Of a DNA stretch of 45,053 nucleotides, positions 2,686 through 7,603 are shown piece after piece. The translations under genes and the position numbers were made by a program. The notes under the pieces were generated by a model. That model had not been told where the DNA came from and did not search any database. It worked only from the letters and a program-made list of their open reading frames with translations. The DNA is taken from assembly GCF_003426775.1 (NCBI RefSeq), contig NZ_QJUG01000049.1, forward strand, positions 1-45,053. The letters are read 5' to 3'. How positions within the stretch are numbered: the first letter of the stretch is position 1; each line of letters opens with the position of its first letter. The stretch comes from Allorhizocola rhizosphaerae (lineage in GTDB: Bacteria; Actinomycetota; Actinomycetes; Mycobacteriales; Micromonosporaceae).

Positions 2686-3246
2686 ATGACGGTGCTGCGC
2701 TTCCGTTGCGCCGGCCCCGATGACGCCGACCAGGTCGCGCTACTACACGCCGACAGCTGGCGCCGACACTATCGGGGCGCCTACGCCGATTCGTTCCTCG
2801 ACGGCGATGTCGTGGCCGACCGCCGTGCCGTGTGGCAGGCGCGGCTGGCGACACCCGCGGCCAAAGCCGAGACGATCCTTGCCGAGCACCAGCACGACGG
2901 GCGCCTGCTGGGCTTCATCCATGTCGCGTTCGACGAGGATCCGCGTTGGGGCAGCCTGGTCGACAACTTGCATGTTTCCCACGAACTGCGCCGCGCCGGC
3001 ATCGGCACCCGCCTGCTGGCTCACGGGGCTGGAGCCGTCACTCGACGAGCGACGACCGGCACCGGGATGTACCTATGGGTGCTGCAGCAGAACACCGAAG
3101 CACAGCAGTTTTACCGCGCCCGCGGAGCAGCGCCCGCCGAGTCGGCCGCGGTGACGCCACCCGGTGGTGACCCGGCCCGCCTCAACGGCACGCCCCGCAG
3201 CCTGCGCATGGTGTGGCCGGACGCCTCGCTCCTGGCGAGGTCCTAA
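2686..3246 (+). CDS. GNAT family N-acetyltransferase, riboswitch-controlled
   Basis: 186 residues with the GNAT fold: an N-terminal FRCAGPDDADQVALLHADSW segment, an LGFIHVAFDE strand pair near residue 75, and the acetyl-CoA pyrophosphate loop VSHELRRAGIGTRLL (R-R-x-G-x-G, residues about 98-112), then LWVLQQNTEAQQFYRARG, the usual motif-B helix. The ATG is chosen because AAAGGAG lies 7 nt before it; an in-frame upstream start would fall inside the riboswitch. The SAM-IV element suggests expression when SAM is low, so a substrate in methionine, homocysteine or sulfur metabolism is plausible but is inference. It converges on the next gene with a 4-bp overlap. Confidence 0.85.
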   Translation: MTVLRFRCAGPDDADQVALLHADSWRRHYRGAYADSFLDGDVVADRRAVWQARLATPAAKAETILAEHQHDGRLLGFIHVAFDEDPRWGSLVDNLHVSHELRRAGIGTRLLAHGAGAVTRRATTGTGMYLWVLQQNTEAQQFYRARGAAPAESAAVTPPGGDPARLNGTPRSLRMVWPDASLLARS

Positions 3247-3530
3247 TCCGCCCCCAGCTCGATTGCCACCAACAACAGCACGGCGAGCCCCGTCGCGAGC
3301 CCGACCCCAACCCCCAGCAGCAGGCTTCCGCCGACAAACGTGGTGATGAAGCTGGCCAGCCCGCCCGAGATGGCAAACGTCGCCAACGCCGGATAGGGCC
3401 GATGCCGCACGTAGCCCACGGCCGCCTTGGCCACGAACTTCAGGAAGATGCCCAGGAACACGAGGACGCCGATGACGGCGAGCCCACCGAGCACCCACAG
3501 AACGACCTCACCACCCGAGACCCCGGACAT
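3243..3530 (-). CDS. Small membrane protein, last gene of the encapsulin operon
   Basis: 95 residues, start at ATG of MSGVSGGEVV, 10 nt after the stop of the gene before it. Three hydrophobic stretches are visible: VVLWVLGGLAVIGVLVFLGI (residues about 8-27), an alanine/isoleucine-rich stretch near 50-65, and LLLGVGVGLATGLAVLLLVA near 68-87. A YVRHRPYP loop sits between the first two. No known family recognised. Its place at the end of a tightly packed unit suggests co-transcription with the encapsulin and prenyl synthase, but a functional link is not shown. It ends convergently with the GNAT gene (4-bp overlap). Confidence 0.6.
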   Translation of the reverse strand: MSGVSGGEVVLWVLGGLAVIGVLVFLGIFLKFVAKAAVGYVRHRPYPALATFAISGGLASFITTFVGGSLLLGVGVGLATGLAVLLLVAIELGAD

Positions 3531-3540
3531 GCGGCGCAGC

Positions 3541-3987
3541 CTACCGGCTGAAGCTCGCCCGCACGACCTCGTATGCGGCATTGTCCGAAGGCAGATTGAT
3601 CATCGTGAGGATGAGGTCGCCAAGGCCGCTGACGCGGATGCGCCAACCCCAGTCTGGCCCGGGCGGCGCCGCGTAGACGCCCTCCAGCGCAACCTCGAAC
3701 GACGAGGCGACACCCTGCAGGGCCATCCAGTGCGGCGTCTGGTGGAACGAGTCGACCCAGATCCCCCGCGCCTCGTGCGGCGCCGACCCGTCGCCGATCA
3801 GCAGCAGCCCGTCCTGCGGACCGTCCGCATTGGACCACGCATAACGCACGGTCACCAGGCTGCCCGCCGTCACGTCAACCGAAGCCCCGGCTGAGCAGGT
3901 CACGAACTCGTCGTCGGGCATGAACCGCGTCGCGAGCTCGCCGGTCCAGTCGCCCAGCAGATGTTCCAAACTCTGAAGTACTCCCAC
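3541..3987 (-). CDS. Small lipocalin-like (DUF1579/FABP-like) protein
   Basis: 148 residues, mostly beta strand. The start MGVLQSLEHLLGDWTGE resembles DUF1579 and heme-binding/FABP-like proteins, which begin with a short helix followed by G-x-W-x-G-x-G/E. Later strands include VTVRYAWSNADGPQDGLLLI and GWRIRVSGLGDLILTMINL. This would be a small beta-barrel able to hold a hydrophobic ligand, which fits its place right after a polyprenyl diphosphate synthase (9-bp gap), but the ligand is inference. No signal peptide. Family assignment is tentative; it could simply be a conserved hypothetical protein. Confidence 0.6.
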   Translation of the reverse strand: MGVLQSLEHLLGDWTGELATRFMPDDEFVTCSAGASVDVTAGSLVTVRYAWSNADGPQDGLLLIGDGSAPHEARGIWVDSFHQTPHWMALQGVASSFEVALEGVYAAPPGPDWGWRIRVSGLGDLILTMINLPSDNAAYEVVRASFSR

Positions 3988-5001: not shown

Positions 5002-6419
5002 GGCAGGTCGTAGTAGTGTCCGATCTCGACATTTTCCAGCACACCCAGGGCATCGGGCACCAGGGCCGCGACCGAATAGTACGCGCTGACAAGGTACGAC
5101 ATGATGGCCCGTTCGCTGATGCCCATGAAGCGCACGGACAGGCTGGGCTGGTATTCGTCCGGGATGCCGGTCTGGTGCAGGCCGACCACGCCCTGGTCCT
5201 CCACTCCCAACCGCATGGCGATGATCGAGCTGGTGCGGGCGCCGTCGACGGGTATCTTGTTGCACGGCAGGATCGGCACGCCTCGCCACCCCGGCACGTG
5301 ATGTCCTTGGAAATCAAGGGGTTCGGTGTAGAGGCCGCGCCGGTTGCACTCGCGCCCGAACGCGGCGATGGCGCGCGGATGGGCCAGGATCACCTGCGTC
5401 TTGCGCCGCCGGCTCAGCAGTTCGTCCATGTCGTCCGGGGTGGGCGGGCCGGACCGGGTCTGGATGCGCTGTTTGAGGTCGGCGTTGTGCAGCAGGCCGA
5501 ACTCCCGGTTGTTGACCATCTCGTGCTCCTGCCGCTCGCGCAGCGCCTCGATTGTGAGCCGTAGCTGCTGCTCGACCTGATTCATCGGGTGGTTGTAGAG
5601 GTCGGCGACCCTGGTGTGCACGCGCAGCACCGTTTGCGCCACCGACAACTCGTATTCCCGCGGGGACGTTTCATAATCCACAAACGTGCCAGGCAATTGC
5701 GGTTCGCCGCTGTGGCCGGCCGCCAGGGCGATCTCGGCCTCCCCTAACCGATTTTGTTTTGGTACCGGGCGAGCCCGCAGCGTTTCGAAGTGCGCGCGCA
5801 GGGTCTCCGACCGCTCGGCCACCGAATCGAAGTCGCGCCGGGACATGACCAGCACGATGCACGGTGTGGCCGCCCGCACCGTGTACGGCCACGTGTCGTC
5901 GTCGTGCAGCACGGTTTCGTCGCCGAAGTGGTCGCCGTCGGCGAGCACGTCGAGCACGGTCTGGTGGCCGTACTTGCCGGGTCCCACCTTTTCGGCCTTG
6001 CCGTGCGCGATGAGGAAGATCTGGTCCGACGGGTTGCCGTACTGCACCAGGCGTTCGCCGGGCGCGAACTCCGCCTGCGTGAACCGTTCGGCGAGGGTCG
6101 TCAGCACTTCGTCGTCGGGGCTCAGCTCGCGCAGCAGCGGAAGCTCGCGCAGCTCCTGCGGGATGACCTGCACCGCGGCGCCGGTGTTGACGAACGTCAG
6201 CCGGCCGTCGCCCACCGCGTAGGTCGTGCGGCGGTTGACCCGGTAGACGCCACCGCTGACCTGGACCCATGGCAGCACACGCAGCAGCCACCGGGACGTG
6301 ATCTCCTGCATCTGCGGCACGGTTTTGGTTGTGGTGGAAAGGTTTCTGGCGGCCTCGGTGGCGAGGCTGAGCTGCTGCTCGGTCTGCTGCTCGGTCCGGG
6401 TCGGATCGGTGATGGTCAT
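4998..6419 (-). CDS. Family 2B encapsulin shell protein with cyclic-nucleotide-binding-like domain
   Basis: 473 residues. An N-terminal arm (1-45) leads to an HK97-type segment (about 46-95), then a CRP/cNMP-binding-like beta-barrel (about 100-210: [48 protein letters not shown]), then the rest of the HK97 fold (about 240-473), including [16 protein letters not shown] and the C-terminal [20 protein letters not shown] helix. This order is that of Family 2B encapsulins, virus-derived protein nanocompartment shells. The phosphate-binding cassette reads [19 protein letters not shown]: the Arg that grips cAMP phosphate in CRP proteins is replaced by W/P, so cAMP binding is doubtful. Start: ATG (MTITD) with AAAGAGG about 8 nt upstream is preferred to a GTG three codons earlier. 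It lies 14 bp after the XRE gene and overlaps the prenyl synthase gene. Confidence 0.9.
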
Positions 6420-6433
6420 CGAGAACACCTCTT

Positions 6434-7603
6434 TCAGGTAAGGCCGGTTCGTTGGGCGAGCGCCAGCACATCGGTTCGGATGAGGGCGTCATCGCGCTGC
6501 AGGAGGTCGCGGAGCACGGCCCGCGCCTCGCGGTTGTATCGAATTTCCTCGGGGCACATGTCTTCGGCTTTGAGCAGGGCCAGGACCATCGCGGCGGTGT
6601 TGTCCTGTCGGGCGTGCGCGCGGGCGACCGTGATGTAGTGCCGCGACCGCCGTTCACGGGCCGGTACCCGTTGCACGTCAACGGTTTCGGCGAGGCGCAG
6701 CGCCTGCCGCACCCGCCCCTGGCGCAGCGAGATCCGGACCGCGTGGATCTGCACGCCGGTGGGCCCGAAGGCGCACGAGTAGTCGTTGCGGTCCTCGCCG
6801 AGCCGGACCGCCGTGGCCCGGGCCCGGTCGAGGAGGCGCTCCCCGACGAGGTGGTCGTCGTCGGCGACGGCCGCCTCGGCCGCGGTCAGGTGGAGAGCGC
6901 CTTGCACACAGAGGTGCGCGACATCGTCGGCGTCCAATGTGGACGCGGCGATGAGACACACCTGGCGCGCCTGCGCCGGGGAACCCAGGCGCGCCAGGGT
7001 GTTGCCGAAGCCGTCGATGCACGCGGCCTCGGCCAGTGGGTCGCCGCTTCGGCGGGCGGCGGCCACGGCCCGTTCGCTCGCGAGCAGTGCCGCGGGCAGG
7101 TCGCCCAGTCGGCGCAGCACCGCTGACGCCAGCCTGTGGGCATTGGCGATCAGGTCATCGGAGCCCTCCACTGTGGACAGCGCGCTGATCAGCGCGGGAA
7201 GTCGTTGCAGAGTGGTCGAATAGGGGTGTGGGGATTCGTGCCAGTCGGTCCAGATGTCGTCGAGCCGGGTGCGTAGTTCGAGTTGGTCCACCGAGCGGCG
7301 CGGCGCGGCGGGTGGGCGATAAAGCGTGTCGCGCAACGATTCCACGAGTCCCGGCGGTGGGGCGGCCGGGTCGGCTTTGGGCATCGCGCAGCCCAAAAAC
7401 GACGGTGGGTCGGAAACCTTGAGCACCTTGGCGAGCAAAAGCAGCAGCGAGAGCCGGTCCACCGGGCGGTCGCCGCGCTCCACCTGCCGGACCCACTCCG
7501 AGCTGCGCCCGATCAGATCACCGAGGATCTCGCGGGAGAGCCCGCGCCTGCGGCGGGCCAGCTCGATGCGGCGGCCAAGGGGGAGCTCGATATCGCTGGC
7601 CAT
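6434..7603 (-). CDS. XRE-family regulator with TPR-like helical domain, first gene of the encapsulin operon
   Basis: 389 residues. Residues about 10-65 form a helix-turn-helix of the XRE type ([39 protein letters not shown]). The remainder (about 100-389) is all-helical with repeated Ala/Leu-rich helices such as [20 protein letters not shown] and [15 protein letters not shown], resembling TPR solenoids of actinobacterial regulators that bind a peptide or metabolite. ATG is preceded by GGAGG at 5 nt spacing. It ends 14 bp before the shell gene, so it is probably co-transcribed and may control the unit itself (inference). The 43 bp before it contain AT-rich sequence (TAATACGCTAT) that could hold an internal promoter. 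Confidence 0.85.

Follow-up and report, generated by a model that had tools for sequence, protein, structure and literature searches.

A Family 2B encapsulin locus of the prenyl-synthase type in Allorhizocola rhizosphaerae and its linkage to a bestrophin-like/DUF6923 membrane pair

Background

Family 2B encapsulins with a polyprenyl transferase as cargo are known from actinobacteria—the searched passages of PMC8346489 count 900 such operons, 888 of them actinobacterial, and those of PMC8049743 note the type as well. The same passages of PMC8346489 describe 2B synthases as carrying a disordered N-terminal extension of 50–100 residues, and the insert domain of the Family 2B shell is reported to have bound no cyclic nucleotide when tested (PMC12407261). 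Here, we analyse a 45,053-nucleotide stretch of the Allorhizocola rhizosphaerae genome (contig NZ_QJUG01000049.1, positions 1 to 45,053; "the window") that holds a Family 2B encapsulin operon of the prenyl-synthase type. We consider it rather probable that the conserved accessory module of this operon, acting as a functional unit, is a membrane pair encoded upstream of the shell—a bestrophin-like protein and a DUF6923 protein, called below the channel and the propeller after their predicted folds—with an XRE-TPR regulator lying between pair and shell in this sub-lineage.

Locus organization

From upstream to downstream, the locus encodes the following proteins, with lengths in amino acids (aa):

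8396–9388, minus strand: DUF6923 protein, 330 aa (PF21959, 46.9 bits; AlphaFold2 (AF2) model; Foldseek beta-propeller matches; hydropathy)
7647–8399, minus strand: bestrophin-like membrane protein, 250 aa, four hydrophobic segments (PF14023, 137.8 bits; AF2; Foldseek; VIA-align)
6434–7603, minus strand: XRE-family helix-turn-helix plus TPR-like transcriptional regulator, 389 aa (PF13560, 36.6 bits; PF13424, 21.9 bits; orthologues at shell loci)
4998–6419, minus strand: Family 2B encapsulin shell protein, 473 aa, HK97 fold with an inserted CRP/FNR-like domain (NF041163, PF19307, PF00027)
3997–5001, minus strand: short-chain polyprenyl diphosphate synthase, 334 aa (PF00348; NF041169; IdsB; both aspartate motifs)
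3541–3987, minus strand: DUF1579 protein, 148 aa, GTG start; classed as a co-directional passenger outside the conserved unit (PF07617, 33.8 bits; relatives unlinked to shells)
3243–3530, minus strand: small membrane protein, 95 aa; likewise classed as a co-directional passenger outside the conserved unit (without family; relatives of 47–59% identity unlinked to shells)

The last five of these genes had been described in an earlier note on this DNA, and re-reading the window sequence confirmed their coordinates, common strand and spacing. The regulator gene is followed after 14 bp by the shell gene (ATG start), which overlaps the synthase gene by ATGA; 9 bp then separate the synthase from the DUF1579 gene, and 10 bp more lead to the gene for the small membrane protein. 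The co-directional run extends upstream past the regulator, outside the interval covered by the earlier note: the channel gene ends 43 bp before the regulator gene and is itself overlapped by 4 bp by the propeller gene. A consensus promoter scan of positions 3000–9800 returned no promoter, and terminators at a chance level that makes them uninformative.

Domain searches agree with the earlier identification of a Family 2B shell with an inserted cyclic-nucleotide-binding domain. The shell protein scores 783.6 bits against encap_f2b (NF041163; cut-off 400) and 470 bits against the SrpI-type HK97-fold domain PF19307, residues 120–206 match the cyclic-nucleotide-binding domain PF00027 (60.3 bits), and its solved relatives are 9bix, 9bje and 9bhu (E < 1e-195). 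The overlapping synthase, called complete in the earlier note, scores 196 bits against PF00348 and has both aspartate motifs (DDVMD and DDMLGIWGD). Its best NCBI family, matched over nearly the full length, is the cargo family NF041169 (f2_encap_cargo4; 438.7 bits), followed by the IdsB geranylgeranyl diphosphate (GGPP) synthase at 307.7 bits, and its closest solved relative is 3nf2; judged by family, it would make a short-chain product, probably GGPP. The co-directional regulator was likewise borne out, with a match to HTH_31 (PF13560; E 6e-9) and a weak one to TPR_12 (PF13424).

Linkage of the membrane pair to shell loci

We called and clustered genes at 101 shell loci (80 from public genomes, 20 stretches from relatives or from the same genome, and the window); the gene caller overlooked the propeller gene of the window because of its Ser-Pro repeat. 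The synthase is present at 55 of the 101 loci, or 56 when one cut contig is counted. A bestrophin-like gene lies within ~6 kb of the shell at 23 loci, 20 of which are among the 56 with a synthase (Fisher p 6e-4, a value that overstates significance because loci of related species are not independent), and DUF6923 stands beside it at 13. Channels of the close subgroup are 43–50% identical to that of the window, and other bestrophin-like proteins 16–31%.

The linkage recurs in several gene orders. Propeller, channel, XRE regulator, shell and synthase follow one another in the window, L147 and L149, and the same order without the regulator is found at L150; at L038, L151, L204, L209, L210 and L214, the pair instead comes after shell and synthase, and at L060, L066, L068, L099 and L117 the channel gene points away from the shell and is followed by the propeller. 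At L149 (3236–5167), propeller and channel are fused in one 643-aa open reading frame (ORF) upstream of an XRE-shell-shell-synthase series. The A. rhizosphaerae genome itself holds a second linked locus: contigs C9 and C54 can be joined by their ends, which have exactly 56 bp in common inside a synthase gene, and the joined locus reads shell-synthase-propeller-channel-terpene cyclase.

Conservation of the genes named in the earlier note is uneven. Regulator orthologues (53–57% identical) occur at three other shell loci (L147, L148 and L149), always between the bestrophin-like gene and the shell, and neither the DUF1579 gene nor the gene for the small membrane protein lies near any of the other 100. 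Of the five-gene unit, shell, synthase and co-directional regulator thus stand and the two small genes do not; the boundary that had been drawn is wrong, and two downstream genes must be dropped and two upstream genes added. A membrane partner, which the earlier note had also proposed, does exist, in the form of the upstream pair instead of the small downstream protein.

Genome-level surveys extend these results. A channel search over 251 genomes of the bacterial family found close matches in 16 of them; of these 17 proteins, 15 are encoded next to a synthase and nine next to a 2B shell. Among 37 genomes of the family, each from a different genus, PF14023 is found in all 14 with a 2B shell, even where unlinked, versus four of 23 without (p 5e-7). 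Co-occurrence across the phylum (15 of 19 shell genomes, compared with 28 of 307 others) is taken as support only, since genome size and Streptomyces-like genera both confound it. The genomic evidence for a coupling between synthase and pair is strong; we infer its biochemical nature, including packaging and chain length of the synthase, the physical contact of channel and synthase or the direction in which one acts on the other, and regulation by the XRE protein.

Predicted folds of the pair

A sequence search of the channel protein against the PDB gave no match, but a fold search did. The AF2 monomer model (predicted local distance difference test, pLDDT, 93.6) has KpBest as its top Foldseek match (template-modelling, TM, score 0.70), and VIA-align superposes it on KpBest 6iv3_C over 236 residues (Z 16.5, root-mean-square deviation 3.2), followed by plant VCCN1 (Z 15) and animal bestrophins (Z 13–14), with unrelated structures at Z 10 and below. 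The product of 7647–8399 is accordingly predicted to have the bestrophin fold.

The DUF6923 protein scores 46.9 bits against PF21959 (cut-off 27), and its AF2 model shows an all-strand core, with pLDDT above 90 in the propeller core, and one C-terminal helix. Foldseek matches are beta-propellers at TM ~0.4, a value that supports the fold class and not a blade number. Since hydropathy indicates a signal-like hydrophobic N-terminus and a C-terminal transmembrane helix (residues 306–329) with a short basic tail, the protein appears to be a membrane-anchored extracytoplasmic beta-propeller. The linker before this helix is Ser-Pro-rich and corresponds to the repeat-coding stretch at window positions 8511–8714.

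A genus that keeps synthase and pair without the shell

The six synthase-bearing channel loci that lack a shell in the 251-genome search all belong to one genus, g19, and no 2B shell was found anywhere in its six genomes. Its loci read synthase-propeller-channel, and in some species there are overlaps of 4 bp. In the synthase tree, the g19 proteins group together (100/100) inside a clade of 13 (100/98), and the remaining members of that clade are encoded next to shells and the pair; the exact sister relation of the g19 clade is weakly supported (93/61). Because of this nesting within a shell-bearing clade, loss of the shell in g19 would be the simplest reading. All three genes are under purifying selection in the genus (mean omega 0.27 for the synthase, 0.17 for the channel and 0.44 for the propeller). 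In two g19 species, the synthase has lost its first aspartate motif to an in-frame deletion, and the frames stay open (L207:10186–11199 and L208:10829–11827); these proteins are candidate pseudoenzymes.

Proposed function and alternative explanations

In the scheme we favour, the synthase would be housed in the shell and provide a C15–C20 prenyl diphosphate (probably GGPP) from which a membrane-directed isoprenoid is made, and the channel and surface propeller would form the membrane end of the synthase pathway, where they may handle the product or its charged by-products, or may sense an outside cue that sets pathway activity. Taken alone, this hand-over or sensing step is a tentative suggestion. 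The broader proposal—that synthase, surface propeller and bestrophin-like channel constitute an undescribed membrane-linked isoprenoid module of actinobacteria, to which the shell adds an optional compartment, since discarded by one genus—we regard as evenly poised.

Several observations weigh against these proposals, beyond the relatedness of loci that inflates the Fisher values. No bestrophin-like gene is nearby at 36 of the 56 synthase-shell loci, and L094, L098 and L114 have one without a detectable synthase; the coupling is therefore not obligatory. The window synthase falls under the curated NF041169 cut-off of 450, a shortfall that is marginal because relatives beside shells score 427–456. 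A long disordered N-terminal extension is not evident on it, as the match to the Pfam domain starts after ~51 residues, most of which align with conserved core in relatives. Finally, the pair is kept in the two g19 species that have lost the first aspartate motif, and its role there therefore cannot simply be that of taking the product.

Two related observations may be recorded here. In the Streptomycetaceae loci L094, L098 and L114, a single 2B shell is followed by the bestrophin-like gene, and a secreted protein of low complexity may be encoded in the interval. A longer cargo extension of the window synthase, begun at an in-frame start further upstream within the shell gene (the ORF is open to 5289), was considered and rejected: the added residues would be read from shell-gene sequence in a different frame, and the synthases of relatives begin at the same position as that of the window.

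The alternative that survives best holds that the pair is a surface-sensor ion channel to which the synthase is an accessory or structural partner, not a supplier, and that the shell is a lineage-specific add-on storing or regulating the synthase. Retention of the pair in g19, both without a shell and despite the motif loss in L207 and L208, speaks for this idea, as do the open g19 synthase frames and their purifying selection (mean omega ~0.27, with 0.17 for the channel). However, the motif loss looks like a single event in two sister species, most synthases of the clade, that of the window included, retain both motifs, and a degenerating operon would give a similar picture, so that we hold this explanation to be unlikely.

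It is also conceivable that the synthase is not cargo at all and works free in the cytoplasm, with shell and synthase as co-regulated neighbours; the inconspicuous N-terminus of the window synthase and the g19 enzymes, which work, if at all, without any shell, are in keeping with this. Against it stand the ATGA overlap with the shell gene, the recurrence of the shell-synthase pairing at over half of the 101 loci, and the best match of the synthase to an NCBI cargo family, and we consider it improbable.

The five-gene interpretation, in which regulator, shell, synthase, DUF1579 lipid binder and small membrane protein would act together and a prenyl diphosphate would move from the shell to the lipid binder and on to the membrane protein, draws on the spacing of the genes—co-transcription of all five is plausible, since they are co-directional with gaps of 9–14 bp or overlaps. 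The 3541–3987 product, which had been called lipocalin-like, matches DUF1579 (PF07617; E 4e-8), and the small membrane protein has three hydrophobic segments by hydropathy and no family match in Pfam and NCBI family searches. However, beyond the absence of both genes from the other shell loci, their homologues in the bacterial family lie elsewhere, among unrelated neighbour genes; for the small membrane protein, these are on C15 in G016 (shells on C18 and C23) and on C1 in G017 (shell on C8). Judged by these neighbourhoods, the two genes are passengers, and the five-gene scheme is very improbable. Weakest of all and scarcely credible is the idea that the pair is mobile or adjacent by chance and functionally unconnected, since although copies without a nearby shell or synthase exist (G007, G025 and G004), with the two genes divergent in many such copies, tight linkage recurs in several arrangements, including the L149 fusion and the second locus of the same genome, and 15 of the 17 close relatives lie beside a synthase. 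A role in anti-phage defence was rejected, the candidates amounting to weak helix-turn-helix matches and one weak match at chance level.

Other shells and neighbouring genes

Additional shells were seen in own-genome stretches L163–L166 (contigs C9, C22, C35 and C74). The C9/C54 shell accompanies a synthase and a geosmin-synthase-like cyclase, and the C22 shell a 2-methylisoborneol (2-MIB)-synthase-like cyclase and a C-methyltransferase; C35 carries two shells, one of them split in two frames, flanking a cyclase, and C74 a shortened shell next to an apparent cysteine desulfurase. Within the window, positions 742–1956 (plus strand) encode a 404-aa protein whose weak similarity to the encapsulin ferritin-like EncB falls far short of the cut-off (E 4e-4), with a 4-bp overlap to a hemerythrin-domain gene at 1953–2423 (plus strand).

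Comparison with described systems

If the proposed partnership is real, the pair would provide Family 2B encapsulins with a first membrane and extracellular partner. It would assign those with a synthase to the membrane and point to specific genes for deletion, and g19, having no shell, would serve as a natural control for what the compartment adds.

The pairing of shell and polyprenyl synthase has been published, and the linkage to channel and propeller appears to be new: none of the open-access main texts searched links encapsulins with bestrophin-like or DUF4239 proteins. Like the systems in the searched passages of PMC8346489, the window locus combines a shell bearing an inserted CRP/FNR-like domain with an adjacent polyprenyl synthase in an actinobacterial host. 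The bestrophin-like/DUF6923 pair and the XRE regulator go unmentioned in the searched passages of PMC8346489 and PMC8049743, and the window synthase shows no evident counterpart of the long disordered extension that the former describes. The channel resembles KpBest and the plant and animal bestrophins in predicted fold over its whole chain, whereas its sequence is ~12% identical. With the 2-MIB- and geosmin-synthase-like Family 2B systems, the locus shares the shell family; at the second locus of the A. rhizosphaerae genome and at several related loci, a terpene cyclase adjoins the shell-synthase-propeller-channel set, whereas in the window locus none was called and no terpenoid enzyme other than the synthase was seen.

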